Of a DNA stretch of 26,361 bases, positions 1 through 19,600 are shown one piece after another; positions within the stretch are counted from its first letter, which is position 1; each line of letters begins with the position of its first letter. The notes beneath the pieces were generated by a model, which did no database searches, was not told the origin of the DNA, and worked only from the letters and a program-made list of their open reading frames with translations. The translations under genes were made by a program, and so were the position numbers. Location: the IMG/VR virus record IMGVR_UViG_3300005466_000063, positions 1-26,361 of that record; one strand, given 5' to 3'. This stretch comes from a virus.

Positions 1-2781
1 TCCCCAGTATCCATCCAGGAATTTGCTGGCCTGTTCTAATATTCTTGGATAATTCTCTGCATTGTGATTACTGATGTTATTTGTATCATTGATAAACTCA
101 TTAGTTACATCTACCTGCTCCCTGGTATATTTCATGAAATCCGCTAATACCTGATCATATTTATTATCATCAACCTTCTTCATTAGTGACCTTCTGAAAT
201 TCGTCAGCTTGTCAATTGTTGAATTCTTTATTTCTGCACCTGGTTTGGTTCTATTCAAATCCTGCACCCATACCTGCCTTTGATGCAGCATATCAATAGC
301 CTTATTAACTACTGGCTTTAATGACTCCATATCAAATAATGCATCACTACTTTCATTTTTCTCAGCTTGTGTCCTGTTATCATTCAGATATGGATTCTTT
401 GGGTCTATATCGCTATAATCATATCCAGGTCTGTTTATCTGTAACTGTGATGGGTGCATTTCATCTATAGCTGTTGGTACAACTATATCTATATATGGCT
501 GGTTATCCTCTATCGGATGTGCTACTAATCCTTCATTCTTGTAGCCACTTACTGTATTTCCTTCAGTCTTTAATTGCAGATGCAGACTATGTAGTGAAAT
601 TACAGGTATACCCTGTAGCTCCAGCATTTTAGCATATACTCCTACCTGTATTGCATGTTGTAATTCTTTTGATAACTTTATTGGATTTCCATTATCGTCT
701 ACCTGTTTATAGAATACAGAACCTTCTTTGGTTCCCCACATACTCACATATTCTCTCGATAGTTCACCTTTATTTACAGTTGGATTAGTTGACGTTTTCA
801 GGTCTATAACTTTTACAAATCCATCTGGTGTAATTAGCATCAAATCTATTGAACCTGCAGTCTTACTTTCAGGGTCAGCTACAACTACCTGTGTTAGTGG
901 TACAGAGCCATCAGATGTATGTTCCTGGACAAATGACCTCAGTGTTGCATATGCATCTGCTTTAACCTTATTTGGCAAATCTGCTGTATCTATTTCATCT
1001 ATTGATTTACCGAGTATAACTCCTTGTAGTATTTCATCGAATTGATTACCCCACTCTCTATTAAGTTTGTATAATTCCTGTTGTTCTGGTGAGAACTTAC
1101 CATTAATTTTAGTTGTTGTACTGTCGTATACTTCTCCATGTATATCTGTATACACATGAGATGTATCATCAAGTATAACTCTGATATGCGACTTGATGCC
1201 CATTTCAGATACAGTCTTCTCAATTGATTCATCCAATTTATCAGGTTTCAGATATATTGCATCAATTATAGCTTTCTGTTTACCTGTTGTACCTTTTGCA
1301 TCTCTGATATTCTCTACACGTTTTCTATCCTCATCTGATAGCTGATAGTATATTTCCCCACGTTCATTAGCTTCCTTCATTTTCTTCAACCTGGATTTGG
1401 ATAACTTACTGATGTCATTATCCAGTATATCCTCAGCTACATCCTCATAACTGTTCAATGACTTTCCTGCGAATTTATCCTTTATCCATTTCCATAATCT
1501 CTCCCACCATTTCATTGCTTTTTTATCATTGAATTTATTCACAATTATATCATCAATAATATGTGCAGCAGTCTCTTTAGCCATCTTTTCTTCATTCACA
1601 GTACCATCTGCATTGTGATATTCCGGATCATTCTTGTACCTGTCATACACCTCATCATATTCATCTCTCTTCTTGACATCATTGATTATATCATTCAGCA
1701 GTACAGAGTCTTCAGGTAGCAGATCCAGGAACATATGTGTAGCCTCATGCCCCAGTGTAGTTATATCTGCCTTACCATCTACTACTTTTATAACTCCATT
1801 GATTGTATCTGCCATTGCAGCAAAGTCCTGACCTCTATTAGCTATCTCTTCTACAGGTACACCTACTGATTTCAGAAATCCTTTGACTTTATTATCTAAC
1901 TCTTTATTTGGTTTGGTATCTGTTGTTGTTGTTTTCTGATAGAAGTTCGGATTTAACTTTATTATACTATCAATTACAGCAGGTTCTCCTAATGAACTTA
2001 AGACGTTTTCCGGGTGAAGATCATCTATAATTACTCCTAAATCTTTATTTATATAGGTATTATCTTTTACATATTCAAATCCTATACTATCCATATACCC
2101 TTTTACTTTCTCCAAATCTTGTTTGTCATTACTTCTATCATCTATAAACTTTTGTTCTACAACAGCTTTTATTTGACCTTCATGTTCTGAATCTATAAAT
2201 CCCAGGAGTTTATATGCCGTTTGAGGGAATAAATAATTATGTACAAGTAGATTTTGTAGATAATACTTCCAGTTACCTCCATAGTATACACCATTATTTA
2301 ATTTAACAACTGTATTAGTATCAGGTTTATAATATACAGTTTGCTCATTACCTCTCCCTATTTTGCTATCCTCATCTACTTTTCCAGAATACCCCATATT
2401 CTGCTTAACAAAATTTATGAAGTTTTTGTTTTCATCATCTCTCTCTTTGAGCGTTCTTTTATCCTCAATACTTGGTTCTTTGCTTCCTGTAAAGTGGCTA
2501 AGGGCTGTTTGGATATGTTCCTCCCCAGTTTTTCGGATTTTTCCGCTAACAATTCCTTGTAGTTCATGTTTTACCTCCTCTATTTGATTTTTGGTTAACT
2601 GTTTATATATATTTACTCTATCTTTTATTGTCTGTTGGTGATATATATCAATCAACTGCTTACCTGTTTCTATATCAGGTACACCATCATGCATCAGAAA
2701 TGCAGCATATGCATCTTTAACACCTAATTCCTTTACTAATTCTATCCAATCTGGATGCAACTTATTGGGGCATTTGCTCAT
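1..2781 (-). CDS. Polyvalent phage protein: kinase-like, zincin and PD-(D/E)xK nuclease domains (3' end outside window)
   Basis: The frame is open from ATG at 2781 to the left edge (927 codons), so the C-terminus is missing. Seen in order: an N-terminal Cys-Pro-Asn...Trp motif (MSKCPN, then PDWIELV); a protein-kinase-like domain at about residues 138-290 with a Gly-rich start (GRGNEQTV), Lys160 in VVKL, the catalytic loop DDLHPENVL (D254, N259) and VIDS (D271); a zincin motif H345-E-A-T-H349 with a likely third ligand E403 (KETAAH); a Trp/Lys-rich stretch; and a RecB-like nuclease at about 530-760 with GSIDLML (D646), VIDLKTS (D660, K662) and a later Gln...Tyr helix. The rest, about 770-927, I do not recognise. 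This architecture fits the 'polyvalent proteins' of phages and conjugative elements, thought to enter the host with the DNA. It starts 5 nt after the giant gene and is probably translated from the same message. Protein targets are unknown. Domain calls come from motif reading only. Confidence 0.85.
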   Translation of the reverse strand, partial: MSKCPNKLHPDWIELVKELGVKDAYAAFLMHDGVPDIETGKQLIDIYHQQTIKDRVNIYKQLTKNQIEEVKHELQGIVSGKIRKTGEEHIQTALSHFTGSKEPSIEDKRTLKERDDENKNFINFVKQNMGYSGKVDEDSKIGRGNEQTVYYKPDTNTVVKLNNGVYYGGNWKYYLQNLLVHNYLFPQTAYKLLGFIDSEHEGQIKAVVEQKFIDDRSNDKQDLEKVKGYMDSIGFEYVKDNTYINKDLGVIIDDLHPENVLSSLGEPAVIDSIIKLNPNFYQKTTTTDTKPNKELDNKVKGFLKSVGVPVEEIANRGQDFAAMADTINGVIKVVDGKADITTLGHEATHMFLDLLPEDSVLLNDIINDVKKRDEYDEVYDRYKNDPEYHNADGTVNEEKMAKETAAHIIDDIIVNKFNDKKAMKWWERLWKWIKDKFAGKSLNSYEDVAEDILDNDISKLSKSRLKKMKEANERGEIYYQLSDEDRKRVENIRDAKGTTGKQKAIIDAIYLKPDKLDESIEKTVSEMGIKSHIRVILDDTSHVYTDIHGEVYDSTTTKINGKFSPEQQELYKLNREWGNQFDEILQGVILGKSIDEIDTADLPNKVKADAYATLRSFVQEHTSDGSVPLTQVVVADPESKTAGSIDLMLITPDGFVKVIDLKTSTNPTVNKGELSREYVSMWGTKEGSVFYKQVDDNGNPIKLSKELQHAIQVGVYAKMLELQGIPVISLHSLHLQLKTEGNTVSGYKNEGLVAHPIEDNQPYIDIVVPTAIDEMHPSQLQINRPGYDYSDIDPKNPYLNDNRTQAEKNESSDALFDMESLKPVVNKAIDMLHQRQVWVQDLNRTKPGAEIKNSTIDKLTNFRRSLMKKVDDNKYDQVLADFMKYTREQVDVTNEFINDTNNISNHNAENYPRILEQASKFLDGYWG

Positions 2782-2786
2782 ATCTG

Positions 2787-5700
2787 TTATATTAATCCGC
2801 AGTCTTTTAATCCTTTCTCCACATCTTCGTTACTTGGCAAATTTACATTAGTTTTACTACGTTTCATAGCTATTTCCATCAATGCATCATCATCAAATCC
2901 ATCATTCTCATCATAGTCCATATCGACATTTGATAATTTCTGACCTGCCACCGTTTTATATGCTTCTATCAGATTATTGATAAATGCACTATTCTTACCT
3001 TGTCCTTCAAATCTATTTCCGAAACCAATGTGTGAACTTGCTTCCAGAAACTCTACACCGCCTCTACCAGTTATACCAGTTACCAGATTTGGATATTGTT
3101 CTAATTTAACTACCAGTATCTTTTGCATTATCTCATTATTCCTTGGATCTATCTGACCTTTCTTTGCCAGCACATCATCATTCACTTTAGAGGATTTGTA
3201 TGCAGCTTCTGCATCTGGATATCTGATACCATTATACATTACAGGGTAATCCTTTATTATTGTACCTTTTCTTTTAGCTATTGTTGTTGGATTAGTCAAT
3301 GCTGCAGATAATGCATCATTACTACCCGATATTATATTTGTACCAACTATTGCAGGTTTTGGATTATCCAGACTTTCCAGTAACTGCTTTGGTGTCATAC
3401 CTGCAGGTACATTGTACACTTCACCATTTTTATATGCAACTGCTTTACCAGCTACATTAGCTATTGTTATACCATGTCTTTCAGATAGCTGTTTGATGGC
3501 TTCCTGTGGTGTATTTGCCTGTATTTGTGGCTCTGGTGATTCCTGCTCTACTATCTCCTGTTTAACCTGTTTTTGTCCTGGCAGATAGTTTGGTTGTGTT
3601 ATTGTTTCTTTTTTTGGTGTTTTGGTTATCAGTTTTGATGTATCTGGTAGTTTTCCGAATGTAGCCCCTCCTGCTTTGAATGTACCTCTTGCTCCAGTAG
3701 TTTCAATTGGTTTGTATACAGCTCTGGTACCTGTAGCTATCAACTGACCTTTTCCAATCTTGTCATTCAGCAATTCATACATTTGTTCACCTGACTTGAA
3801 TGTTCTTGGGAACTCTACAGCTCTGTACATTACAGCTTCACCCTCTTTAACTTTGCCACTATCTACCCATATGATATTTAAACCTGCATTCTTCAATGCT
3901 TCAGCATTCATTTTGATATCCCCTTTCATCAGGTCTATTTGCAGATTACCATGTTCATAGTACATAGCTGGTGTATTATTGAATGGTATCTTTATATACC
4001 TTTGATAGTGATTGTTGTCTACATGTTTACCATAATTACTCACGAAGTTATTCATCATATAATTCCAATCCTTACCTTCTCCGAATAGTTTTACAGCATC
4101 TGCATCACTATACTCTTTCATAACTAATGCTTTACTAACCCTTGCTGTACTATCTGACAGGTCTTTGAATAATGCAGGTGCAACATACTTGATAAATGAC
4201 TTGTCCTTGAATTGGCCACCATCTTTTACCAGCAGATAGTTGAATATTTTCAATCCATCAATTCTGGTATCTGGATTAGTTACCAGTTGCATGAATGAAT
4301 CGCGTAGTTGTATTTGCCTTTCATTTGATAGTTTAGCCCAGTTATTTGCATCTAACTTATTTATACCTGACCTGTTACCTTCCTCACCTGCTTTACTGCT
4401 GAATAGAAACTGATTGACGAAATAGTTAGCTTTTCTACCCTTCAGTGTCTTTTTCAACCTGTTCACTATTTCAGTTATATCCTCTTGTCCTGGAGTTTTT
4501 GACGCTTCATATATTAATCCATTATCCAGAGAATTCCTGTTGCTCATCAATCCTTTTTTCTCCAGTTCATATATATGATTTGATATTGACAGGTAGCCAA
4601 TCATATCATATTTCAATTGCTTCACGAATAGCTCCCTTTCATTCGGTTTCACTTTCAGATTTGCTACCTGTATATCCTGCATTCTCTTGAACAGTTCAGA
4701 TTTCTCAATGAATAGCAATGGGGATAGCTTGTCTATCTGTGTTAGCATTTTGATGTACTTACTGGTTATTGGGTCAGTTTCTGTTAACTCCTTTCTGATA
4801 TCTATTATACCATCATAGTCATCCACAGATTTGCCATCCACTACTCCCAGTTTAGTCAGTGATTCTTTCAGTCCATCTATTTCCTCCCATGATACAGGTA
4901 GACCACCTGCTATTCCCAATACATTTGACAGATTCAACAATGCACTTCCGAGTTCCTGTGCTTTCTGTATATCCAATAGTGCAGATAATTGAGCATGTTG
5001 ATATTGTTCATCTCCTTCTATATCGCTATTTGCATTTACTATAGCATCTTCTAAATCCTTTCTGGTTAGTTGGTGTGGCTTTCTACTACCATAACTTTCT
5101 ATAGCCTCCTGCAGTACCCTATTTTTACTTTGTTTGGACTCGTCAGAGGACTTCAAAGTACCTCTCAGGTATGCAATATCGTTGTAGTATTTTTTAACAG
5201 ATGGTTGCAACATGTACAAAACAGCATCATCTATATTCATACCTACCATATTCATTACCATAGCATCTGATAATGCCTCTCTTGTCAATCCCAACTTTGC
5301 AGCCAGTCCATCCAGTTTTGCATTATCTGTCATTGCATTAATGTATGTCATCAATACATTGAATTTCCTGGTACCGTTAGTTGTTGTAGTTTCATTTAAT
5401 TTGTTATAGTCAACTCCACCGAACCTGATATAGTTCCCAGGCACAACTACATTGTGTTGTTGTACAAATGACAATACAGGTACTCCATTAGCAGCTATAC
5501 CTACAGAACCTTTACCTGCAGATATATTAGCATGGATTCTTGACTGCCCTCTCATTTCATTGATGTTGACATCTGAACCCTCAAATGACCTCAACAGATT
5601 CTCTATATTCCTTTTCTGCTCTTCTGATAATCCAGACCTTTCCTGCTTTTCTATAACTGTTGGAACCTTTTCTGTATTATCTATACCTATCTCTTTTAAT

Positions 5701-8700
5701 TTTTCATTCATGTAATTCCATACCCTGGGTGCAGATTCTCTCATATTTGATATCTGACCTTTACCAAATGGCATCTGTGCTGCAAATTTGATACCTTTAT
5801 ATTGTCCAGATGATATAGCAGTCTTGATATGACCTACTTCACTATCTATTATTGATTTGTATTCATCTAATTTACTGTCATCCCACTGGGTTCTTTTATC
5901 ATCAACCATTGTAGTTATTGGGTATGCATTTTCTAATCCTCTGATAACTGCCTGAGTCATCCCTGGATAACTACCTTGTCCATACTTTTTTACATACTGA
6001 CTGGTCTTATCTATACTATTGGAGCCAGATGTTCTTTTTGCATTATCTGTGAATAAATACAAATACTCTGGGTCATTTTTCACTGACTGTCTGGTAAAAT
6101 TTGTAGTTACAGGTACTGCTATTGCAGATTTCTGTCTATTGGGTTTATCTTCTTCTAATTTTCTCTTGAATATCTGATAGTAACTATTTCCATTATCTGG
6201 ATTTATCAAATCACTCAATAGTGCCGTACTGGTAGTTTCCAAGTTCATTGGATTATCACCAGATGCCACATGATTATTACCTGCCAGTGCAATTTTACTA
6301 TCCAGCTCCCTGTTATTAATCACACCTGTATTCAGACTTTCTCCACCTCTGGCAATGAATTCAGATACAGTAGCTGGTAATTTTAGTGATTGTAATCCTT
6401 CTTTTATATAGAATGCTTTAGCTTCTTCTAATTCTTTTTGTATATCTTCTTCTAACTTTTTACTCTTTTGTGCACCTTTGGCATGTTGATTTAATAAATC
6501 CTTTCTACGATTATATAACCATGTTGGGTCTTTTGCTATTTGTAATGAATACACATTTCCAGATATTCTCTCAATTAATTCACTTTGTTGTTCTTCAGTC
6601 AATCTTAATTCAGATATCAAATCCTGAACAGCATCGTTTTTCATTCTTTCTTTAACATGATCTCTCAGTTCTTTATTGTTTTTCAACAGATAGTGTAGAT
6701 ACTCATTGAATTTTCCATCATTCGTAGTTGCAGTTCCGTATTTAACCAATTTTCCATTACTTGTATATATATCATACATCTGCAAATTGTCCTTATCTAA
6801 ATCATGGTCCTTGCCACCAGCCTGTGATTGTATGGATGGATTGACTTCTATTGAACCTAGATATGCAGGTAGTGTATCTACCCTCTTATATACAGAACCA
6901 TTATTACCTGCAGCATATGGTATATCATTTCTGTAACCCATAGCTACTGGACTATCTGCACTACCGTTATCTTCTGCATGATGTACAGGTATTAGATACT
7001 CACTATAGTTGATTCCTGTAGCTACTCCATCTTTATATTCAGGTACATTGGCTCTCAGATGGTCAATGATTATATCACCTGCTTTCAGTCCTGTGTGTAT
7101 TCTGTTTTTTATATCTGTATATCCTATTGGATTACCATACTTTTCCAAATCCTTACTATATTCAGACCTTGGTACCACTCTCCATTTTCCAAGTACAGGG
7201 GTACCATAACTATCTACTTCATACACTTCCCTGATTATGTTATGTCCAAATGGTGATACCTTTGTGCATATCAGCCCTGGCACCTTCTCATTCATTACCC
7301 TACCGAAATAATTCAATACCTGTTGTGTGAATTTCTCCAATGTTGCAGGGAAATTCAAATCATATATCGGTTGTGATACTCCATTTTCATCCTTGCGTGT
7401 TTCCAGAAATCCCAATGTCTGTTCGTCAGACCCTGTAGACTGTAACTGCTCCCTCATATTATCATAGAACTTTCCGAGCACTGGTTTAACTTTCTCTATA
7501 TCTGTATCTGATAAGTCTACAGGTGAATCGCCTACAATTTCAAATACACCATTGAGTGCATTGTTCCAGTTATTCTGTAACCTCTGTGCTACATCATTGC
7601 CATACCTCTTTCTGATATCTGCAATCTTTGTACCATATACTTTTGTATCATCATTCTGTTCAGCAGATAGTTGCCATACTGGTTGTGTTGGTTTTGTTAT
7701 TGTAGTTTTGTTAGATGGATTTTCCAACTGTTTACGCCAGTAATTTGCATCTGTGCTATTGAAATGACTACTTGTTATTCTGTCTGCTGCAGGTGCTATA
7801 CTTTTTGTCTGTAATTTGGATGCTGATTCAGGTACAACAAGTGATGGTATACCTGTAGCCTTTTCATTATCCCTCATTGATTTCCAGATATGGTATAATT
7901 CCATTCTTGCAGGGTCTGGTATCCATCTACCAGACTTGTCCTTTATCATTACCTGTCCTTTAGACAGCATATGTACAGACAGTTTCAATCCTGTATATCC
8001 ATCATAGTATACGGGTTTCAATGGATTTAATACATCACCTGTATCTACTAATCCATCTTTACCTAGTACTTCATTATTAGATAGCTCCTCACCTTTCTCT
8101 ACTTTATCTAATGCAGATGCTCTCTTTTTTGTCAGTGTTCCAAATCCCCAATGGAAATTACGCATACCGAATTCAGTTATCCATCCTTGACTATCAGCAT
8201 GGTCAAATCCATTTTCATCCTTTGGTTCTTTCAATATTGCTATATGGAAGTTTGTTAATGGTCTGTCTATACCAAGATGCGGTGCTACTATATTTGGTTT
8301 TGCTGCACCTGGGCCATCTGCATTCCAGAATGATAATCTCTTTGTGTTAATTCCATTTGGTGATAGCAGATGTGTAAATCCATCAGCATTGATGAAATTA
8401 CTGATATATATCTGGGATATGTTGAACTTGAAATTATCTCTCAGATTTAATCCATCACCTTTTTTCCCCGGTATACCTTTCCATAGATACTCAGGTAGCA
8501 TCTTGTTTATATACTCCTTATCACTCTTTTCAATTAATCCTTGCTGTATCAAATCTTCATTCAAATACTTACCTATAGTTTCATTGAAATACTTCTCTAT
8601 CTGTGATTTGATTTCAGATTGTGATGGCTTGGATATTTCTTCATTTGCTTCATTATTTATTATAGCATTCTGATATTCCTTACCTATACTTCCCAACATC

Positions 8701-11700
8701 TGTTTAGCTCTGTCAAACTTCAGACCACTCATTTTACCCTGGTGCCAATCTGCTATATAGTTATTTTCAGATAGCTCATCAATCTCTGACTTAACTCTAT
8801 CTATTCTGGCTATTTCTTCATTAACTATATTTAACAGCTTATCCATTGCATCTGGTGCAATTTTGATTTCTCCTTTTTTGTTGATGTATACAGAGTGAAT
8901 AACCGGAGCATTTACTATATACAATTTGCTCTTGTCAGATATGATAGCTGGTATCACATTTGTACCATATATAGCATTTGACTCAGTTGGATTTGCATAT
9001 ACAGAGAACTTGAAATAGTTTAACTCTCTTGTATTGAAATTCTTGAGTGTACTACCTGGGCTTTTGTTAGTGCTTAGATATGCAGGTGCTGATACTTCTT
9101 CTCCCTTAATGTCGAAATATCTCAATGCAAGTCCATCAACTAGAGATACTTTTTTATTCCAGTTCAACCACTCATTATCTTCTAACAGGTGACATAGTTG
9201 GGTATCTGGATTATTTCTCAGTTTTTCTATTTCTGCATCTGTATTTATTTTTATACCTTTTTCCAGTATGTAGTTATACTTCTGGAATCCATATATATTC
9301 TTACCCTCGGCATTCTTGTAATTGGTACTGTCTACAGTCTCATCAAATTCAGCATTACCCTCAGCTATATTCTTCAACCTGTTATCTGCATATATGAATG
9401 GGTTATTCTTCTTTACTTTACCTGATTCATCTAGTTTATCAGATAATAGTACTTCACGTATTTCGTATATATCTGTAGGGTCAATCGGTTTTGCTGTATA
9501 TGTACTCAGTAGTTCATTCATATACGAACTCTTATCAGTTATATTACTGGCTATTGAGTACTGTATATATCTTTGGTGAATTGATATGCCTAACTGCTGT
9601 TTTATATCATTGGATATTTTCTGACAATCATTTACAAATTCATTATCATTACTGTATACATTTTCAGTATTCATTAACTGACTACGTAACTTACCTATAG
9701 CTACTGTATTCTCCTTTGCATATGTTTTCTTTGCAGTAGCATTGTCATACCCTTTCAGATATAGCTCATCAAATGCAGATGCCCATTCCTGTACCTGGTT
9801 CCTTGCACTGCTATTCCTATTAGCCTCATATGCTCTTGTAACTGTACCCACAGCACCTTCATTCGTACCTGCTTCTACGAGTACATGACCTACAGATGCC
9901 TGCCTGAACCCATCCATGAATTGAATGAACAGCTGATGGTTCTTTTCAATACTCCGTATACCTTGTTCATTTTTATTGAATCCTGTATCTGATAACAATC
10001 TTCGAACAACTGCTGCTGATTCACTATCTGTGTTCTGTACAGCTATTAGCTTATCAAGCATATTCTCATACTCAGGTACATTCTTTAATAATTGTGTTAG
10101 TCCGTTATATATCTTCTGTCCATCAACAGCCTGGTACATCTGCTGACCATTGGCAAATTCACTATTACCGAATTCATCTATATACGGAACTACAGTAGAA
10201 CCTATATACTCTCTAATTGCTCCCTGTAGTGAATTATACCCACCTACCTCATCAGCGTTTGTATCATAGTTCTTTGCTCCTACCTGGTTCTCTACTTTAA
10301 TTACTTTATCATCTTCCAGGTCTTGTTTGTAACCCATCAATTTCAAATGCTCATCAACTGCTTCAATCAGTGAATTTCTGCTATCTGGATTACTGAATAA
10401 CTTATATTGTTCATTTAATCTCCTTAACCATGCAACTGCTTCTACTTTATCGGCTTTGTATTTATTCGTGAACAGCTCACTATATCTCTGCTGATTTGGA
10501 TTCAGAGTTGCTTTATAGTTGTCCAGTATTGAATTGAGCAATTGTGATTTGTTATGGTCAGATACCAATGACTGCATGTGATATAATGCAGCTATGGTAC
10601 TGGATAACCTCATACCATCCTGTTGGTTCAGAGTTTTGGTTATTATCTCCTTTCTGCCATCTGGTCCTACATATTCCTCCTGTCCGAGTTCTATTAACTT
10701 CAGAGCACTGTCATTTGCAGATGTAGTTGCTGTGAATTCATTATCCTGTAATTTGGCATGTTTGAATTCACCTCTGTCCATTTTATAGAACATGCTCTCT
10801 ATCTGGCTACCTGTTAATTTGTTGAACAGCTCCTTCAGCATATTCCATAACTTCTGGAACCATGCTTTGATGCTGCCAGGTACATATGTCTTCTGATTTG
10901 CCTTCCATTCATCGAACTTGTCAGCTATCCATTCTTCCTGATAGTCATCCTTGGTTGCATATTCTCCATATACTTTCTGGAAATCCTCAAACTCTTTATC
11001 TGTTATTGGATTAACTTCATGTGCTTCATCCAGCAATGCTCTTTGTTGCTCACCTGACAACAATGTTCTGTATACACCATGAAATGCTTCATGATACTTG
11101 AATGGACTATCTGGAGTAATTAGTACTTGTCTGAGCGATGTTACAAACTCTCCTGCAGTTATATGACCATTTACCAGTCTTGGAACTAATTCGCCTCTAG
11201 TTATCCAATCTGGCAGATTATCAGACATCCAGTTATCAAACTCATCTATAGATACTACATCTGCTACGGTTATCGCCTTTCCAACTGGTATTAACTTATT
11301 TGCACTATCTGATTTAGTTACAGTGTTGAATATAGCCATTGGATCATCTTTATGACTATCTATCAATTCCTGTATCTGCTGCTCTTCTGATTTTGTTGGT
11401 GTATATCCAATTTCTGCTAGCTGTTCAGTTGATGTTATTGATTCTCTTTTCTCTATTAGTTTCTGTCTTTCAATTACTTTTAGTTCTGCATTAAGTAATC
11501 TTTTCTTCCAATCTGGGACAAACTCATTTAATTCATCTATAGTGAAACCTCCTCGTTGTATAATTCTTTCAAATGATTGATCATTTGCACTACCTGGATA
11601 CTTAATTTGCCATTGATGATATGCTTCTCTAGCAATACTTTCAAGTACATAGAAATTTTTTACATCCAAATGACCGTACTTAACTCTGTCATTATTATCT

Positions 11701-14700
11701 CTTTGCATTACAAATTTAGATACATCAGATTTTGGATTTATACCTTTACTTATTTCATCAGCTTTCTTAGATTCTATATCAGATACAGGTGCAATTACAG
11801 GTATAGCATCCTGGTATAATACACTTTTATCTACATCATATTTCAACTTGATATTCTTTACTATATCTGTTGATGTAGTTATTTTTGATTGCATTATTGT
11901 ATCTGCATCAATATTTCCTTTTGGATAACTCTTTCTTACATTGTGTGGCTCTATCTTTATTTCTGGCAGTCCTTTCTTTTTCAGATATGTGTTTGATAGC
12001 ACATTGAGTTTTTCAATGAACTTTTCACCTGACTGAAATTCCAATGATTTGTCTACACCAGGACCAGCATTTATAGTTATGTGTAGTGGGTTTGTACCTT
12101 CTACCCATCCATTATCTGTTTTGTATTTTACTTTATACCCAACATTGATGTATCCATTTTTACCCATATTCATATTGAGTGATACAACAACATTATCTTT
12201 TGGATTTTGGGTTATGAATATTTCCCCTAACTTTTTACTGGCTAATTTCCTGGTAGCTTCAGCTTCTTTCAGTTTGCCTTCAGATGTTAGTTCCCTAATT
12301 GATTTAGATGCTTCATTGATATGGTCAGATACAAATGTATCCAGTTCTGTTCTTTCTACCTCTTTATCTACTTTAGTTGCATAGTCTGGTGTAACTGTTT
12401 GTACCCATCTCATATCACCACCAGGTAACCTGAATAGTGTTATATACCTGCCTAGTGGATTTGGTTCTTTGAGAACTGTGACTCCTTCCGGTTTCTCACC
12501 ATATACAACATCTCCATTATTCTGGTCAATTGTACATACTACTTCCTTCCCCGTATCTATAACCTGTTGTATTGTTGGCCATCCATCTGACCTTTCACGT
12601 GGTATTGTATCAAATTCGGCAGTACCTATTGACAGTTTTATCAGCTTACCCAACTTTGTACCTGATAATACTCCACCATTATTGTTTTTAACGTCATCAA
12701 TAACTTCTGCCAATTGTTGTGATTTGGCATAGTTATCCATCCATTGATTGTATACCTCGTCCTTTGGTTTACCGTTCATGTCAAATACATACTCAAACCA
12801 TTCTCTGTCAGGTACAGATGATACTTTACCTGTGAATGGATTTGTGAACTGATATTTGTTCGGATGTGTCAGATATAACATTGGTATACCCTTTCCATCA
12901 TTCCTGTATATGGCAATTGTATTCGGTTCTCTATTGATTGTTATATATGGATTACCTGCAGTTACATCATTATCGTATGTACTTTCTGGTTTATTGTTAC
13001 TAGTAACTACAATACTGAAATTATCTCCATCTACAGATACCTGCCTGAGTACTTTATCAACCAATATCTGATTTGCTTCCCTCTCTTCAAGTGTACTTCC
13101 AGCAGGGTGCATTCCTGTCAGTTCATATGTATTCTGTAACTTGTACTTGTTATCCGGCATTTCTGGCTTACCTGGAACAGATTCAGGTTTTGTATCAGTC
13201 AGTGCATTATCAACTATTGATACTGGTGTACCTGCCTCACCTTTATTTGTTATACGTACAGCAGTTTCTTTATCCTTTACTACATACTTATTTCCACCAG
13301 CATCGTACATATACTGACCTCTCTGTACCTTCATTCCATTTATATCATACCACTCAGCTAACCTCTGTAATGTCTGATTGGCTTCCCTGATACTATCATA
13401 TGGGCTACTCAGTACTTTGCCATCTTTATTCTTTACTAACCATTTGCCATTTTCTTCTACCACCTTGGGTTCATTATGCAGATGTGGATAACTGAGTGGT
13501 TTTACTCCTTTATCGAAATGCTTGTCAATGAGTTTATCAATCTCTTTATCCGATACTTCCTCGTCATTATCACCATATATACCCTTAGCGAACATCAGAG
13601 TAGTTTTCAGTGTAGTTTTATCATTTTTCAGATACTGCTCTGCTTCCGGTGTTAATGGTGTATCTGGATAGTCATGTATCCACTTCCTTATACTATCACG
13701 TACAGCTTCTATATCTGTATTTGTAGTTGTAACTACAGGTTTGGCTGATTCGTTTGTTATACCTAGTTCTGTTGGAGTTACAGGGTTTGGCTCTGTGGTT
13801 GTAACATCTTCAAATGGTGTATACTCATCTTCTTTTTCAGGTACAGGTTTTGGACTTACTGGTTCTCCTGTTGTTGTATCTTCAGTTACAGTTTGCTCTT
13901 CTTCCTTATTCTTTTTTGCTTCAGCTTGTCTTTTTGCTCCTTCTTCTGCAAATGACATCTGGAACCTCTTGATTATATTTGGGTCCAGTACTATATTCAA
14001 TTGATGTAATGCTCTATGATGATCTACACCTAACTGATAGTAGTCCATCAATTTATCCATTGCTTCAGATACCTGTTCCTTAGTTGGTGGTTCTTTTCTG
14101 TCAACTACTTTACCTTTCAGATTTCTTGTTATCAATGAGTTTTCTAGATACTCATGTAACTTATCTGTCAGTTCTTCTTTGTATTTATCATTCAGCTTTT
14201 GTAGTTTCTCATCTCTGTCATGAGTAGCACCTTCATTTAGTATATCTGCATACTCTGTTAGGTATCCTGTTAGCACCTCTTTATATGCATGTGTTGTTTC
14301 TACAGCCTTCTTTGCATCTGTGTTGTTCGGGTCCAGGTTCAGTATCTCTGTATAGTCAGCTATATGCTTATCTAACAGTTCTGTTGATGTAGTTGTGAAT
14401 ATGTCACTGAAACCCAGGTTTTTTGCAAATTCCATATCCATTATACCTGTATCATTACCTTTGCCATTCAACAGGTCATTCTGACGCTTTAGTGCTCTAC
14501 CTGCACTATCCTTCATCATTACTACATAATCCTTCGCTATCTGATGTATCCTCTGGTTATTATACTGTATATTGAATTCCTCTGTACCATCTTTATATAA
14601 CCTGTTACCATCATTATCCTTTTGATATGGATTGAATGGATTTCCTAACTTACTATCTACCTCACGGGATAACCTTCGTAATTCTTTAACTCTTCCAGGC

Positions 14701-16670
14701 AATTCATTAATTTCACCTTTAATTGATTCATAATTTTCTGGCGTGTTTGGTACTTTGAACAGGTCACATAACTGCTCCTGGTTCAAATCCCTTGCAAATC
14801 CAAGGGCACGTTGTATCCACATATCTGCCAGACCATTCTTTATCATTGGTAGCAGAAATTCCCTGCTTGCATCATCTTTTATATCGTGATATTCCTTTCT
14901 GTTATTTGCAGATAGAGCACTGCTACCTGATTCAGTTAATGCACTTTGCAATACCATATCATGGATAGTTCCCTTTACCGGATTTAATGGGTCTTTCCAT
15001 AACTCATTTACTTTATTCACAAATGTCTCTGCATCCTTACTTGCCTGTGCAGACCTCTGTATCTGCTTTATTTCACCATCTGTACCTGATAATTTTGCAG
15101 CTCCCCAATCCTTTACTTTACCTAATGCTGCTCCACCTATACCTAACAACAATGCTCCCTGTACAAATCCGGATATGAATGTCTTTGCGCCTTCTTTACT
15201 GAACTGACTATCTATGCCATTCCTGATAGCATCAAATCCGGATATGTCATTGTTATCATACTTTGCATCGAAATAACTTTTCACACCTTTATCTACAGCA
15301 CCCATGATATTACCAAATGCTCCAAATTCAACACCTTTCTCTATTGTATGTCTCCCTAGTTCCCAGTAGTTAGCTTTGAAATCATACCATTTAGCCTGTT
15401 GTTTTACATACAATGGAACCTCTGCTGCATCTGCGGCTTTACCTAATCCCCATGTTGGTTTGATACCTACCTTCTCAAATATTCCCCTGTTACTATTTGT
15501 TATTGCTTCAGATAATGCAGACCTTGAATTGAGTATATTTCCAAATGCAGCTTTCTCCAGGAACAACATACTCCATGCATTTAGAGCACCATCAACCTTA
15601 GCAGCTTTCATTGCCCTGTCTTGTATATTCTGTATATCAGACATACCTGGTTCCATTCCACCATTAGCCTTTTTATACTGCTCTGTCTGCTCTCCTAACA
15701 TTTGCTGATATGTACCTGCAGCATTGCTACCCGCAAATCCTGTAGCTACATTTATTGACCTGATATCATTAGTGAATGCAGTTAGTCCTCTACCTACAGT
15801 TGCAATGGCTCCACCTTCGGCACCATATGCTGCTGCATCTAATCCAAATCCCAGAGTATTACCAACTCCAGGTACATACTTACTTGCAAATCTTCCCAAG
15901 TCTTTCCATGCATTACCTATTACGTTAGCACTGTTGATAGTTTTGTCCAACTGTGTTGTCATTTGTGCAATTCTGGCTGCATTCAATTCCTCTAATGGTG
16001 CTCCAGCTCCAAATGTACCTGCAATTATAGCTTGAGTAGCTATAGTTTCAGCAGCTATCTCTCCCAATGCTCCCAGAAAATGTCCACTATTTTGTATACC
16101 TTTAGCTATGGAACTGTATACAGTTGGGTCTTCTCCCTGAAATATGTGCCAGTTATTATCGAACTCTGTCTCCTTTCTATTGATTTCCTCTAACTGTCCC
16201 TGCTTAAATACATCTGACAGATTACCTGCAACTGCAGCAGATGCCAGATTCTTCCAGTTAGCTGCCATATCATAGAAGCCATGAGCAAGACCTGAACCAA
16301 ACCCACCAATCATTTTCTTGGTTTCATCCCATCCTGTTTGCCCTTGTGCATATTTCAGTTCATTGCCTTCACCTTGCAACTCAGGGTCAAATCCTTTATC
16401 TTTATATTGTCTGTCATTCACATATTTCTGAGCACCAGATTTATCCCAATCGAAAAACGAGGGTTCATATTTGGCATTTGAATTAGATGTATGTGACATC
16501 TTTGTCAGCATATCCTCTTCTGGTGGTTGCCCATATACTTTATCAGCTACAGGTTCTGCTATATTCAATTTGATTGGTCCACCTCCAACATGCAGTGGTC
16601 CATAGTTATTATTCGGTGTAGCCATTTGCTCCAATGTAGGAGCTTGTTCTGGCAGTATATAATCGGGCAT
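2787..16670 (-). CDS. Giant (4627 aa) crAss-like virion RNA polymerase fused to zincin and NADAR-like domains
   Basis: This is by far the largest gene here. Seen: a Gly/Ala-rich N-terminal part with hydrophobic helices (about residues 110-530, e.g. GALLLGIGGAALG); a charged helical part (about 530-920); a Pro/Thr/Glu linker (about 920-977); a zincin motif HEAFH (H1860, E1861, H1864, with E1912 or E1913 as likely third ligand); a long polymerase-like region (about 2700-3860) with ADSQGWIT near 2824, the metal motif D3288-H-D3290-L-D3292, SAGKGSVGIAANG near 3718 and MTDNAKLDG near 3778; a second Pro/Gln/Glu linker (about 4347-4397); a NADAR-like domain (about 4440-4575); and an acidic tail. crAss-like phages are known to carry a single-chain two-barrel RNA polymerase in the virion to transcribe early genes. 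The start ATG overlaps the upstream stop (TAATG). Inferred role: particle-borne polymerase and multi-enzyme protein delivered into the host. The polymerase assignment is good; the flanking domains are less certain. Confidence 0.85.
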   Translation of the reverse strand: MPDYILPEQAPTLEQMATPNNNYGPLHVGGGPIKLNIAEPVADKVYGQPPEEDMLTKMSHTSNSNAKYEPSFFDWDKSGAQKYVNDRQYKDKGFDPELQGEGNELKYAQGQTGWDETKKMIGGFGSGLAHGFYDMAANWKNLASAAVAGNLSDVFKQGQLEEINRKETEFDNNWHIFQGEDPTVYSSIAKGIQNSGHFLGALGEIAAETIATQAIIAGTFGAGAPLEELNAARIAQMTTQLDKTINSANVIGNAWKDLGRFASKYVPGVGNTLGFGLDAAAYGAEGGAIATVGRGLTAFTNDIRSINVATGFAGSNAAGTYQQMLGEQTEQYKKANGGMEPGMSDIQNIQDRAMKAAKVDGALNAWSMLFLEKAAFGNILNSRSALSEAITNSNRGIFEKVGIKPTWGLGKAADAAEVPLYVKQQAKWYDFKANYWELGRHTIEKGVEFGAFGNIMGAVDKGVKSYFDAKYDNNDISGFDAIRNGIDSQFSKEGAKTFISGFVQGALLLGIGGAALGKVKDWGAAKLSGTDGEIKQIQRSAQASKDAETFVNKVNELWKDPLNPVKGTIHDMVLQSALTESGSSALSANNRKEYHDIKDDASREFLLPMIKNGLADMWIQRALGFARDLNQEQLCDLFKVPNTPENYESIKGEINELPGRVKELRRLSREVDSKLGNPFNPYQKDNDGNRLYKDGTEEFNIQYNNQRIHQIAKDYVVMMKDSAGRALKRQNDLLNGKGNDTGIMDMEFAKNLGFSDIFTTTSTELLDKHIADYTEILNLDPNNTDAKKAVETTHAYKEVLTGYLTEYADILNEGATHDRDEKLQKLNDKYKEELTDKLHEYLENSLITRNLKGKVVDRKEPPTKEQVSEAMDKLMDYYQLGVDHHRALHQLNIVLDPNIIKRFQMSFAEEGAKRQAEAKKNKEEEQTVTEDTTTGEPVSPKPVPEKEDEYTPFEDVTTTEPNPVTPTELGITNESAKPVVTTTNTDIEAVRDSIRKWIHDYPDTPLTPEAEQYLKNDKTTLKTTLMFAKGIYGDNDEEVSDKEIDKLIDKHFDKGVKPLSYPHLHNEPKVVEENGKWLVKNKDGKVLSSPYDSIREANQTLQRLAEWYDINGMKVQRGQYMYDAGGNKYVVKDKETAVRITNKGEAGTPVSIVDNALTDTKPESVPGKPEMPDNKYKLQNTYELTGMHPAGSTLEEREANQILVDKVLRQVSVDGDNFSIVVTSNNKPESTYDNDVTAGNPYITINREPNTIAIYRNDGKGIPMLYLTHPNKYQFTNPFTGKVSSVPDREWFEYVFDMNGKPKDEVYNQWMDNYAKSQQLAEVIDDVKNNNGGVLSGTKLGKLIKLSIGTAEFDTIPRERSDGWPTIQQVIDTGKEVVCTIDQNNGDVVYGEKPEGVTVLKEPNPLGRYITLFRLPGGDMRWVQTVTPDYATKVDKEVERTELDTFVSDHINEASKSIRELTSEGKLKEAEATRKLASKKLGEIFITQNPKDNVVVSLNMNMGKNGYINVGYKVKYKTDNGWVEGTNPLHITINAGPGVDKSLEFQSGEKFIEKLNVLSNTYLKKKGLPEIKIEPHNVRKSYPKGNIDADTIMQSKITTSTDIVKNIKLKYDVDKSVLYQDAIPVIAPVSDIESKKADEISKGINPKSDVSKFVMQRDNNDRVKYGHLDVKNFYVLESIAREAYHQWQIKYPGSANDQSFERIIQRGGFTIDELNEFVPDWKKRLLNAELKVIERQKLIEKRESITSTEQLAEIGYTPTKSEEQQIQELIDSHKDDPMAIFNTVTKSDSANKLIPVGKAITVADVVSIDEFDNWMSDNLPDWITRGELVPRLVNGHITAGEFVTSLRQVLITPDSPFKYHEAFHGVYRTLLSGEQQRALLDEAHEVNPITDKEFEDFQKVYGEYATKDDYQEEWIADKFDEWKANQKTYVPGSIKAWFQKLWNMLKELFNKLTGSQIESMFYKMDRGEFKHAKLQDNEFTATTSANDSALKLIELGQEEYVGPDGRKEIITKTLNQQDGMRLSSTIAALYHMQSLVSDHNKSQLLNSILDNYKATLNPNQQRYSELFTNKYKADKVEAVAWLRRLNEQYKLFSNPDSRNSLIEAVDEHLKLMGYKQDLEDDKVIKVENQVGAKNYDTNADEVGGYNSLQGAIREYIGSTVVPYIDEFGNSEFANGQQMYQAVDGQKIYNGLTQLLKNVPEYENMLDKLIAVQNTDSESAAVVRRLLSDTGFNKNEQGIRSIEKNHQLFIQFMDGFRQASVGHVLVEAGTNEGAVGTVTRAYEANRNSSARNQVQEWASAFDELYLKGYDNATAKKTYAKENTVAIGKLRSQLMNTENVYSNDNEFVNDCQKISNDIKQQLGISIHQRYIQYSIASNITDKSSYMNELLSTYTAKPIDPTDIYEIREVLLSDKLDESGKVKKNNPFIYADNRLKNIAEGNAEFDETVDSTNYKNAEGKNIYGFQKYNYILEKGIKINTDAEIEKLRNNPDTQLCHLLEDNEWLNWNKKVSLVDGLALRYFDIKGEEVSAPAYLSTNKSPGSTLKNFNTRELNYFKFSVYANPTESNAIYGTNVIPAIISDKSKLYIVNAPVIHSVYINKKGEIKIAPDAMDKLLNIVNEEIARIDRVKSEIDELSENNYIADWHQGKMSGLKFDRAKQMLGSIGKEYQNAIINNEANEEISKPSQSEIKSQIEKYFNETIGKYLNEDLIQQGLIEKSDKEYINKMLPEYLWKGIPGKKGDGLNLRDNFKFNISQIYISNFINADGFTHLLSPNGINTKRLSFWNADGPGAAKPNIVAPHLGIDRPLTNFHIAILKEPKDENGFDHADSQGWITEFGMRNFHWGFGTLTKKRASALDKVEKGEELSNNEVLGKDGLVDTGDVLNPLKPVYYDGYTGLKLSVHMLSKGQVMIKDKSGRWIPDPARMELYHIWKSMRDNEKATGIPSLVVPESASKLQTKSIAPAADRITSSHFNSTDANYWRKQLENPSNKTTITKPTQPVWQLSAEQNDDTKVYGTKIADIRKRYGNDVAQRLQNNWNNALNGVFEIVGDSPVDLSDTDIEKVKPVLGKFYDNMREQLQSTGSDEQTLGFLETRKDENGVSQPIYDLNFPATLEKFTQQVLNYFGRVMNEKVPGLICTKVSPFGHNIIREVYEVDSYGTPVLGKWRVVPRSEYSKDLEKYGNPIGYTDIKNRIHTGLKAGDIIIDHLRANVPEYKDGVATGINYSEYLIPVHHAEDNGSADSPVAMGYRNDIPYAAGNNGSVYKRVDTLPAYLGSIEVNPSIQSQAGGKDHDLDKDNLQMYDIYTSNGKLVKYGTATTNDGKFNEYLHYLLKNNKELRDHVKERMKNDAVQDLISELRLTEEQQSELIERISGNVYSLQIAKDPTWLYNRRKDLLNQHAKGAQKSKKLEEDIQKELEEAKAFYIKEGLQSLKLPATVSEFIARGGESLNTGVINNRELDSKIALAGNNHVASGDNPMNLETTSTALLSDLINPDNGNSYYQIFKRKLEEDKPNRQKSAIAVPVTTNFTRQSVKNDPEYLYLFTDNAKRTSGSNSIDKTSQYVKKYGQGSYPGMTQAVIRGLENAYPITTMVDDKRTQWDDSKLDEYKSIIDSEVGHIKTAISSGQYKGIKFAAQMPFGKGQISNMRESAPRVWNYMNEKLKEIGIDNTEKVPTVIEKQERSGLSEEQKRNIENLLRSFEGSDVNINEMRGQSRIHANISAGKGSVGIAANGVPVLSFVQQHNVVVPGNYIRFGGVDYNKLNETTTTNGTRKFNVLMTYINAMTDNAKLDGLAAKLGLTREALSDAMVMNMVGMNIDDAVLYMLQPSVKKYYNDIAYLRGTLKSSDESKQSKNRVLQEAIESYGSRKPHQLTRKDLEDAIVNANSDIEGDEQYQHAQLSALLDIQKAQELGSALLNLSNVLGIAGGLPVSWEEIDGLKESLTKLGVVDGKSVDDYDGIIDIRKELTETDPITSKYIKMLTQIDKLSPLLFIEKSELFKRMQDIQVANLKVKPNERELFVKQLKYDMIGYLSISNHIYELEKKGLMSNRNSLDNGLIYEASKTPGQEDITEIVNRLKKTLKGRKANYFVNQFLFSSKAGEEGNRSGINKLDANNWAKLSNERQIQLRDSFMQLVTNPDTRIDGLKIFNYLLVKDGGQFKDKSFIKYVAPALFKDLSDSTARVSKALVMKEYSDADAVKLFGEGKDWNYMMNNFVSNYGKHVDNNHYQRYIKIPFNNTPAMYYEHGNLQIDLMKGDIKMNAEALKNAGLNIIWVDSGKVKEGEAVMYRAVEFPRTFKSGEQMYELLNDKIGKGQLIATGTRAVYKPIETTGARGTFKAGGATFGKLPDTSKLITKTPKKETITQPNYLPGQKQVKQEIVEQESPEPQIQANTPQEAIKQLSERHGITIANVAGKAVAYKNGEVYNVPAGMTPKQLLESLDNPKPAIVGTNIISGSNDALSAALTNPTTIAKRKGTIIKDYPVMYNGIRYPDAEAAYKSSKVNDDVLAKKGQIDPRNNEIMQKILVVKLEQYPNLVTGITGRGGVEFLEASSHIGFGNRFEGQGKNSAFINNLIEAYKTVAGQKLSNVDMDYDENDGFDDDALMEIAMKRSKTNVNLPSNEDVEKGLKDCGLI
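2946..3353 (-). other. NADAR/YbiA-like domain at the C-terminus of the giant protein
   Basis: Residues about 4440-4575, placed after a Pro/Gln/Glu-rich linker. The pattern G4481-I-R-Y-P-D-A-E4488-A-A-Y-K-S-S-K4495, then IMQKILVVKLEQYPNL, FLEASSH and EGQGKNSAFINNL, follows the order of conserved blocks in NADAR (YbiA/DUF1768) proteins, which act on ADP-ribose-linked substrates. The closing block differs from the classical Trp-Gly...Gly-x-Asn-x-Leu-Gly form, so this may be a divergent branch or another fold. Confidence 0.5.
5091..8573 (-). other. RNA polymerase-like region within the giant protein
   Basis: Residues about 2700-3860. The order of conserved blocks matches crAss-like virion polymerases as I remember them: ADSQGWIT followed by a Lys-Pro block (NPLKPVYYDG), then YRNDIP and LPAYLGSIEV leading to GGKDHDLDKDNL (D3288, D3290, D3292, the putative Mg-binding triad), then SAGKGSVGIAANG, and MTDNAKLDGLAAKLG followed by MLQPSVKKYYNDI. 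The two-barrel fold and catalysis are inferred from family knowledge. The borders are approximate. Confidence 0.75.
10791..11123 (-). other. Zincin metallopeptidase-like domain within the giant protein
   Basis: Residues about 1850-1960. H1860-E-A-F-H1864 is a perfect HExxH zinc-binding and catalytic motif, and EEWIADKF 48 to 49 residues later supplies a possible third zinc ligand (E1912 or E1913). A Trp/Lys-rich amphipathic stretch (KAWFQKLWNMLKELF) follows, similar in type and place to that after the zincin of the next gene. The substrate is unknown; self-processing or cleavage of host proteins are both possible. Confidence 0.65.
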
Positions 16671-19600
16671 TATTTCAGATTTTGTGTATTGTGTATAACT
16701 CTTTGTGATGCAAGTGCAGATATGTCCTTATTTCTACGTTGTGATACTGCATTCATTATCATATCCGGATTCCAACCATTACCACCCATTGGTATATTTA
16801 TTGGTGCATCAGATACCCATACTTCACTGCCATCTTTCTGTACTTCCAGATGCTGACATTTAACTGTTACACTTGTCGGATGATCAGCATTATCAGGTAC
16901 AACTACTGACTTGAATCCCATATGTTCATCATTACTGTCATTCTGAATTATCTCTCCTTTTAGTAACCTGCCATATGTATATAATCCTGAACTTTTTGGT
17001 ATACCTGAGAGTACTTCACCTGTTACATGTGGTGATAATGGTATCTCTACCACTTTTGATATAGTATTGCCTTTTGCATCTAGCCAGTCTACAGGTATGC
17101 GTACTACATCTTGTCCAGTAGCAGATACAGTACTATATATTGGCTGACCTAGATTCTTCCTGGTACTTTCATATGAACCAGCCATTACTTGTAATTTCCG
17201 CTGGTCTTCAATGCTCATATCTTCACTCTCTCCCTGGAACCTTATATTTGTGTGATTTGCAGGATTTATTGCCTCTGCTATTATCTTCTCTCCATTTCCT
17301 GGATTCTTTGCATTTCCAAATCCATAACTGATGTCCATACCTGTTTTACCTGTGTGGTCTCTAACAGATGGCATATAGCTGGCGACTTTATTCTGTAGTG
17401 TTCTATTCAGTTGATTCCTTTGACTATAACTACCGTATCTGTCCATTAGATTATGGATAGCTTTCATTGACTCATACTCTCCACCAGGTGCGCCTACAGC
17501 ATTTCCAAATTGGTCATAGTGTGTTTGTTGATTTGGTCTACCATTTACCTTATCTACATTATACACTCTACTATTTAACTTTATTGTATTTTCAGTCGGA
17601 TGTTCCATATTACCTCCTAGATATGCTGCTGCATATTCTTGTGGTGTTATTATCTTTCTCTCTCCTGTTCTGCTATCAGTAGCTTCTATTATAGGTGATA
17701 TTTGTGCCACATCTGCTACTCCAGCTACTGCTGTACCTGCGTCATTCAGCAGTATCTTGTGTTCATTCCTGTCAGATAATGTCAGATGTTTTAGTGCTGT
17801 TTTCTCTTCCTGTACTTTACCTATATAACCATTTAGTGCATCTTCCTCTATTTTTGTTTGTGTATATGCCTGTGCGTATGGGTCATTCTCTATCATTGGT
17901 ATTTTCAAATCAGTTGACCTGCGCTTATATTCATTTGTCAGATACTCATTCTTTGCCCTGTTGACAGCATCATATGTATTTGGAACTGGGTGCCCCAGGT
18001 AATTCTCCAGAGTTTTACGCACTCTATGAAATGCTTCTATCTCCTGTGGCTTCATTGTAAATTTGGCATCTGTATAATTCTCCGCATTATAGAGTCTGCC
18101 CATAGCTGTCTTGAATTGCAGTACATCATTATCTGATATTAACTGCTTTCCATCTTTATCCTTTATATCGGCTAATCTATTAGCTGTACCATTTCTACCA
18201 TAGCCTGCATCTGATGCCACAGTTAACAATGCAGCCTTTTGTGAATTGAGTACATTAGAGAAATTTATGTTCTGCTGGTCTGTTACCTGTTGTCCTGTCA
18301 GTTGTGTACTAGATACAGTAGCTCCTGTTGTTGGGTCCACTTTCCTTTGTTCACCTGTCTTTGGATCAATTATTATACCTGCCTCGTAGTACTTTTCAGC
18401 TATGCCTGCCTGTGTATCCTGATGATGCCACAAATCTCTTTGCCTTGTTTCAGATAACTCAGCGCCTTTCAATCTAACTTCTGCATCCTTCAATTTTAAC
18501 TCTGTTTCTTTCTCTCTGTGATTCGCTACTTTATCCCACACTTCATTAACTCCAATACTATAACTATATGCAGATGCTTGTGTAGCTGCCAATTTATCTA
18601 TAGTTTCCTGGCGTACTAATTTGCTATAGTAATTCTCTGGATTCTTTACTATATCATTTATCTTCTCATTCGGATTAGCATTCATGAACTGCTCACGTTC
18701 AGTAGATAGCTGACTTAGCTGTTCCAGATACTGCTGTTGACCAGGTACATATGTGCCATCCTCTTTCTTATACCCAACTTCCAGATTATTCAGATTTCTC
18801 TGCTGCTCATCTGTTAATTTACCACCCTGTTTTTGTTTGAGTTCATATAATGCAGCTATGGGCATTTGGAATGTTGTCCATACATTATGTCCAAAATTCT
18901 CTAACTTCCTGTCATAGTAGCTCTTTATATCATTATATTTATTAGCAGCTAGTTGTTGTGCTATCTGACTCCTTGGTATCTCTGGATGTTGCTGTGCTAA
19001 CTGATCTAATTCCTGTCTATGCATTACATACCCCTGTTGTGAGAACTGTCCCTGGAACTTGGAACCCAACATTGCATCATACCTGGTTTTGAGTTGTGGC
19101 ATAGCTCCAACTCCATTAACTTCAGTTATCAGCTCTGGTCCATTTATTCTCTGTTTGGATATACCTTTGAATCCTGATGATTTGTCTTGTTCATCTACAT
19201 ATGCCTGATAGTCAGATATGGGTATATAGTCAGCTCGTTCTACATTAGCTATTGAGCCATCCCCACGTCTTGCATTCTTCAAATCCTCTAACACATATTT
19301 CTGTCTTGCTGCAGACCATGGGTTATAACTGTTCCTGATTTTCTCTTCTTTTGAATTTGCATCTGCCTGAGCCTGTTGTATTTTACTGGTAGCATCTTTT
19401 GTAATTGCCATGTCATGCAGCATATCTTCATCACTCCAGAATGGAGATAACAGATTCTCTGCCTGTAGCACATGCTGTGGCATAGTTGTATCACTCTGTG
19501 ATAGCTTCTTTACGCCATCCTGGAATATCTTTATATACTTCTGCTTGGCTTCCTGATTTTCAGTATTTGTTACAGGTGCATTAATTACAGCACTGTAATC

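Follow-up and report, generated by a model that had tools for sequence, protein, structure and literature searches.

The locus raises the question of what a virus makes of a single chain of 4,627 residues, and whether the parts that a sequence-only reading had distinguished in it (an N-terminal ejection-like part, a protease, an RNA polymerase and a NADAR-like domain) correspond to proteins of known phages. We analysed a linear virus record of 26,361 bases, hereafter the window. For the chain we demonstrate where a domain has been inserted, which catalytic residues are present, its core fold, its homology and its gene order, and from these we propose how it might be used during infection.

The giant reading frame and its relatives

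The unbroken frame proved real: it begins at 16670 and ends at 2787 of the minus strand, with 4,627 codons and no stop between. The frame, its first linker and the adjoining genes are:

2787–16670, minus strand: giant ORF, 4,627 aa, with collinear homologues in 49 contigs
13671–13910, minus strand: low-complexity T/E/P linker, residues ~921–1000; entropy is low at 921–970 and homologue cover stops after ~970
16670–19741, minus strand: preceding gene, 1,023 aa, a conserved neighbour (pv profile, E 2.3e-51 in the window)
1–2781, minus strand: next gene, still open where the window ends and no shorter than 927 aa; cargo protein of the crAss001 gp49 type with Kinase-PolyVal, HEATH and a PD-(D/E)XK-like part

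Two low-complexity linkers had been reported for the giant. The first is one by entropy, whereas the second (~4370–4400) is P/Q-rich and did not reach the entropy criterion. Simple hydrophobicity gave a single strong hydrophobic segment (residues 498–516), and the idea that the giant is a clear membrane protein was rejected.

Single-sequence searches with the giant (Pfam, PHROGs, PDB and the first two IMG/VR scans) returned almost no matches. A tblastn search of 50,697 phage records gave no match to the N-terminal 2,000 residues, and the C-terminal 2,627 residues matched only through the segment 3524–3665, in three crAss-like phages; this segment is the domain DUF7831. An alignment of DUF7831 used as the query yielded 31 loci, including L014 (one contig with L064 and G007), which aligns to the window across 1804–4342. 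The L014–window alignment, used as the query in turn, yielded 52 loci, of which 49 giants were complete enough for comparison. These 49 relatives in viral metagenomes share the layout of the window's giant, and most are 4,400–5,500 aa long. Collinearity with the window extends from the N-terminus to ~970 in most relatives, across 1790–3490 in 49/49 and across 3690–4215 in 48/49, at 19–36% identity per collinear segment.

Gene order is also conserved: contigs that are long enough carry a gene of ~850–1,180 aa, the giant and a gene of ~1,500–2,150 aa, and a counterpart of the window's preceding gene occupies the same place in those relatives whose contigs reach it. The nx profile, built from the genes after the giant, matches both the window's gene (E 4.8e-110) and crAss001 gp49 (E 6.6e-66), and the Kinase-PolyVal domain of the window's gene is recognized by Pfam (PF18762, E 2.6e-41). 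The fusion, which had been taken as a trait of this one lineage, is real but not peculiar to it, since 49 or more related contigs share it, as do the Oafivirinae giants cr130_1 gp79 (5,801 aa) and cr272_1 gp23 (6,386 aa). Giants of like composition, 4–6.4 kaa in length, are known in Crassvirales, and virion RNA polymerase (vRNAP) genes reaching ~6,000 aa have been described as a hallmark of that order (PMC10136315). In-frame TAG codons, of which the window's giant has none, number 37–74 in the recoded Oafivirinae giants L003, L004 and L005.

Within the 26-kb window fragment there are no capsid, portal or terminase genes, and the order's marker genes are all missing there. A crAss-type major capsid protein profile, however, matches 17 of the 21 related contigs tested, the remaining four being shorter fragments. 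We assign the lineage by sequence to the crAss-like phages, because of this capsid profile in the related contigs and because a segment of a 479-aa gene in the window is common to crAss-like phages. In that upstream gene (22532–23971) the segment HINPKNKGKF...STEELTHSSNPVTRKRA is 68–82% identical to segments of many crAss-like phages; it is also present in crAss001 gp45 (cargo protein C1), and some homologues are annotated 'transcriptional regulator'. The genes at 21633–22535 and 25514–26353, which lie between other genes of the block, resemble group I intron/homing endonucleases of crAss001 (GIY-YIG-like).

The gp47-type part, the zincin and the fused chain

The first half of the chain contains two regions with recognizable counterparts:

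13962–16670, minus strand: N-terminal domain, residues 1–903, a homologue of the virion cargo protein gp47 of crAss001 and of genes that stand separately upstream in G002 and G003
10695–11261, minus strand: zincin-type metallopeptidase domain, residues 1804–1992 (A10 profile, E 1.4e-57 in the window)
11079–11093, minus strand: HEAFH, residues 1860–1864, invariant in 29 aligned relatives
10932–10937, minus strand: E1912–E1913, candidate third zinc ligand, the EE being invariant in 29 aligned relatives

A profile built on residues 1–970 (A11) matched a 1604-aa gene in G003 (E 1.3e-122) and a 1822-aa gene in G002 (E 1.2e-112), both directly upstream of the giant, and by hhalign it matched crAss001 gp47 (96%). 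What had been described as an ejection-like part is borne out as the homologue of a known virion cargo protein. No relation could be detected between the window's N-terminus and the first ~2,000 residues of the Oafivirinae giants or the N-terminus of phi14:2 gp67. A likeness of the N-terminal domain to EDS1 in the PDB (E 0.009, helical part only) was taken as noise.

The zincin profile A10 matches crAss001 gp47 at 2102–2298, the C-terminal part around that protein's own YHEAFH (hhalign 97.8%), and the best PDB match of the zincin part is a weak one to the Pro-Pro endopeptidase 6fpc (E 0.04). The protease suggested by the HEAFH motif can be specified as zincin-type, both HEAFH and the downstream EE being unchanged in the aligned relatives; the scan patterns contained PFKYHE, so the conservation of HE in the relative set is partly a selection effect.

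Because the N-terminus and the zincin match gp47, and the polymerase core matches crAss001 gp50, the giant can be read as a gp47-type and gp50-type fusion. We put the probability at roughly 0.85 that it is one chain of gp47 and gp50 counterparts which is likely packed, ejected and used to transcribe early genes. Mass spectrometry detected gp47, gp49 and gp50 in crAss001 virions, and their ejection in a partly unfolded state has been proposed (PMC10172136). In phi14:2, early genes are transcribed by a packaged enzyme (PMC7886860, PMC10136315). By analogy with phi14:2, crAss001 and N4, from which we infer packaging, ejection, cleavage and activity, the giant would be packed near the portal together with the gp49-type protein, would thread its way out before the DNA or along with it, and would then refold, its polymerase part transcribing early genes before the host RNA polymerase comes into use. 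The zincin may cut the chain at the gp47/gp50 junction, since it is located where other crAss-like phages have separate genes, or it may act on host proteins.

The break points between these proteins vary, G002 and G003 being split after the N-terminal domain and crAss001 after the zincin, and the gp47-type and gp50-type parts being fused in the window. In crAss001, gp47 and gp50 are the counterparts of the window's N-terminal domain, zincin and polymerase core, with gp49 that of the next gene, but the crAss001 cargo genes are separate and lie partly on opposite strands. Such differences between lineages are also in keeping with a polyprotein that the zincin cuts into gp47-type and gp50-type units, in assembly or after ejection, the fusion then being merely genetic. 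The position of the zincin at the junction, which is the end of gp47 in crAss001, fits this alternative, as does the proposal that zincins process polyvalent proteins (PMC5512222). However, we identified no cleavage site in the chain, phi14:2 gp67 is without an HExxH motif, and the N4 vRNAP works as a single 3,500-residue chain (PMC12633501). We regard processing of this kind as rather unlikely; it agrees with the gp47/gp50 reading in every respect except that the chain acts as a single molecule. The fusion itself may have no function, since some phages do well with the proteins separate.

Chains of comparable build are known outside the gp47/gp50 system. The N4 vRNAP (Schitoviridae) and P23-45 gp96 are giant chains with ejection-type parts, a metallopeptidase and a polymerase that are delivered with the DNA (PMC12633501, PMC5512222, PMC10770324). 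P23-45 gp96 is a two-barrel polymerase fused to a tape measure protein, unlike the window's giant. The N4 vRNAP is a T7-type polymerase, again unlike the window's two-barrel enzyme. Already described are large multidomain proteins in the crAss-like transcription block (PMC7886860), N4-type vRNAPs that carry a fused zincin (PMC5512222) and vRNAPs joined to a tape measure protein (PMC10770324). The giant also resembles polyvalent proteins, in which a single large chain combines numerous enzymatic domains of unrelated kinds, with a zincin hub (PMC5512222), and the Kinase-PolyVal domain in its neighbour gene is a further likeness; the text of that survey mentions neither crAss-like polymerases nor NADAR. 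Within Crassvirales, the two Oafivirinae giants carry HEAFH, a two-barrel core and DUF7831 in one chain, as does the window's, and are followed by a gene of ~2,000 aa.

The RNA polymerase part

By homology, we identify residues ~2,690–4,215 as a crAss-like virion RNA polymerase, with the following features:

6636–8288, minus strand: RNA polymerase core with both double-psi barrels, residues 2795–3345 (homology and fold match)
7983–7985, minus strand: K2896, invariant core lysine, 100% in 81 crAss-like cores
7815–7817, minus strand: K2952, invariant core lysine, 100% in 81 crAss-like cores
6795–6809, minus strand: DHDLD, metal-binding aspartates, residues 3288–3292, invariant in A3 and at least 96% in A7
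4026–5603, minus strand: downstream polymerase block, residues 3690–4215, collinear in 48/49 relatives
5487–5519, minus strand: AGKGSVGIAAN motif, residues 3718–3728; the same motif stands at 1542 in phi14:2 gp66

The A3 profile matches the crAss-like polymerase structure 6VR4 at E 8e-129. Because A3 also contains closer relatives of phi14:2, the independent test is a profile of the relatives from which both the window and L014, its nearest relative, were left out; this matches the window at 73 bits (E 1.3e-19), whereas 200 shuffles reached at most 13.7 bits, and deletion of DUF7831 raised the window's score to 79 bits. The window alone, compared by hhalign with six crAss-like polymerases, gave 96%. 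The polymerase match on which the sequence-only reading had staked residues 2700–3860 was thus found, and the blocks that it had placed on either side of DxDxD were confirmed by the same window-free profile.

An AlphaFold2 model of the core (residues 2795–3345, from an 81-sequence alignment) had a pLDDT of 89.9 and a pTM of 0.87. Foldseek searches of the PDB with this predicted core placed 6vr4_A first (E 3.9e-16, TMq 0.60, 614 columns) and QDE-1 second, and among viral models (BFVD) Virus NIOZ-UU157 came first (TM 0.87), followed by many crAss-like phage proteins. The two double-psi barrels that the sequence-only reading had required around D3288–D3292 are likewise supported, being assigned at the level of whole-core alignments of the prediction to 6VR4 and QDE-1. 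Profile, structure match and predicted core together bear out the proposal of a single-chain polymerase of the crAss-like type.

Like the window's enzyme, phi14:2 gp66 has a single-chain two-barrel core, the aspartate triad (GSDFDIDK, against GKDHDLDK in the window) and the invariant lysines, and its AGK..VG..AN and DNAK motifs follow in identical order. In contrast, gp66 is a protein of 2,180 aa that carries neither a fused gp47-type part nor a zincin, DUF7831 or C-terminal accessory domain.

The window's enzyme has nevertheless diverged. Its core forms the longest end branch of the polymerase clade (1.32) and keeps 61 of 82 clade-conserved columns (74%, with 21 lost), where other members keep 81–100%. 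Its RIPxxxxxS block reads R-ND-IPYAAGNNGS, the R being displaced by a two-residue insertion and the S replaced (S3257N), and F3289H changes an otherwise near-universal residue within DxDxD. Activity may be reduced, given the long branch, the lost columns and these altered residues. The same observations, together with the presence of a whole domain inserted within the polymerase, could be taken to mean that catalytic function is already lost, or is being lost, in the polymerase part, that DUF7831 interrupts a dispensable enzyme and that the chain is mainly an ejection or effector vehicle. We consider this improbable, because the three aspartates, the two invariant lysines, Q2981, Q2996 and most other near-universal core residues are kept, the core is predicted at high confidence, and the interval that holds the insertion varies by ~200 residues among relatives.

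Accessory domains in and behind the polymerase

The span that had been called polymerase contains DUF7831, which the sequence-only reading did not include, and further domains follow at the C-terminus:

5703–6104, minus strand: DUF7831 (PF25176), residues 3523–3656; Pfam score 31.6 bits (cut-off 27), E 1.7e-7
5634–6140, minus strand: insertion in the polymerase, residues ~3511–3679, missing at this place in L014/L064 and L065
2931–3401, minus strand: C-terminal accessory domain, residues 4424–4580, NADAR-like by eye, profile tests negative
2790–2828, minus strand: C-terminal tail, residues 4615–4627 (EDVEKGLKDCGLI); most relatives have a similar short helix with a Cys 1–5 residues from the end

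In the window DUF7831 lies ~235 residues past DxDxD, behind the catalytic barrel and ahead of the conserved block that follows, whereas in G002, G003, G007/L014, G008, cr130 and cr272 it lies ~1,000–1,250 residues past DxDxD, near the C-terminus; in cr130, SLOG-like and NADAR parts precede it. At the window's internal site DUF7831 is missing from all 49 relatives. The window and L065 align on both sides of the insert, the window having ~170 extra residues, and the closest copies found, C-terminal ones in other giants, are 57–61% identical to the window's. The interval from DxDxD to DNAK is 496 residues in the window and ranges so widely in relatives (242–449) that the insertion site is a tolerant one. 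We suggest that DUF7831, elsewhere C-terminal in giants or a separate gene, has moved into a tolerant loop after the catalytic barrel. Five relatives (L070, L075, L102, L072 and L090) have ~100–160 extra residues between DxDxD and DNAK compared with the median, and other long inserts at the DUF7831 site in relatives gave no significant Pfam match. That the internal copy is an assembly chimera rather than a true insertion, as its occurrence in one contig only might suggest when the other polymerase-bearing giants compared carry a C-terminal copy, is very improbable, since the frame is open throughout, the GC content of the insert (0.35) is close to that of its flanks (0.36–0.37), the closest copies found are only 57–61% identical to it and the alignment holds at the boundaries on either flank.

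The C-terminal accessory domain had been read as NADAR-like. A NADAR-like pattern is visible by eye at 4449–4570 (E..A/FxxxK, K(F/L)xQxPxL, LxE, GxGxxS) and is common to the window, L065 and L197, but neither Pfam nor NCBIfam gave a NADAR match, and a three-sequence hhalign comparison with NADAR (12.5%, score 26.3) did not exceed the shuffle maximum. Leave-one-out NADAR controls scored 94–99.9% in the same profile–profile test, and NADAR was rejected as a claim for 4424–4580. The region is nonetheless shared: it is 66% identical to L065 3965–4116, the stretch with the pattern (4449–4570) is 66–68% identical to L065, and L197 contains a stand-alone homologue gene. A literature search for crAss and NADAR returned nothing relevant.

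Other giants end differently, with DUF7831 in G007, L066 and L071, a SLOG/DprA-like domain in L065 and L098, and NADAR plus DUF7831 in cr130; in L065 the DprA/SLOG-like domain stands beside the homologue of the window's C-terminal domain. Judged from these sequences, the C-terminus of the giants is a place of domain exchange. In two viral contigs of more than 300 kb (L017/G017, ~320299–321247, and L019/G018, ~98055–99004) a stand-alone DUF7831 gene lies less than 60 bases from a NADAR gene, which suggests that the neighbouring genes are a functional pair. Viral SLOG, Macro and NADAR domains, usually stand-alone in phages, are thought to counter host-defence ADP-ribose signals (PMC9503650). In view of the exchange of SLOG, NADAR and DUF7831 at the C-terminus, the adjacent DUF7831 and NADAR genes and this viral countering of ADP-ribose, we infer that the most fitting reading of DUF7831 and the C-terminal domain is a passenger module for counter-defence, of the NAD/ADP-ribose kind, although for DUF7831 this role is tentative, at somewhat less than even odds. 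Far less likely, the insert could be a sensor or regulator, in which an NAD/ADP-ribose-type ligand of host defence binds and alters phage transcription; if true, a domain for defence signals would be built into this RNA polymerase.

Despite the variable C-terminal region, the tail of most giants (relatives L065–L115) follows the consensus FIEQIKxCxL with varying codons, and the next protein after the giant often begins M(A/S/G)xCxN, with Cys at position 3–4. The terminal Cys helix might serve as a packaging signal, might form a metal or disulfide link, or might be left over from a once-joined chain.

New here are the mapping of the fusion onto gp47 and gp50 with moving break points, the finding that viral metagenomes contain a broad lineage of these giants, and the relocation of DUF7831. 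The three polymerase-associated cargo proteins of crAss-like phages can now be seen as one conserved series whose break points shift between lineages, and the little-understood gp47 is linked with an N-terminal domain as well as with the zincin at the fusion junction. The polymerase C-terminus emerges as an exchange place for NAD/nucleotide-type domains, one of which appears to have moved into the enzyme, and it can now be tested whether the first polymerase of crAss-like phages is delivered with counter-defence domains physically attached.
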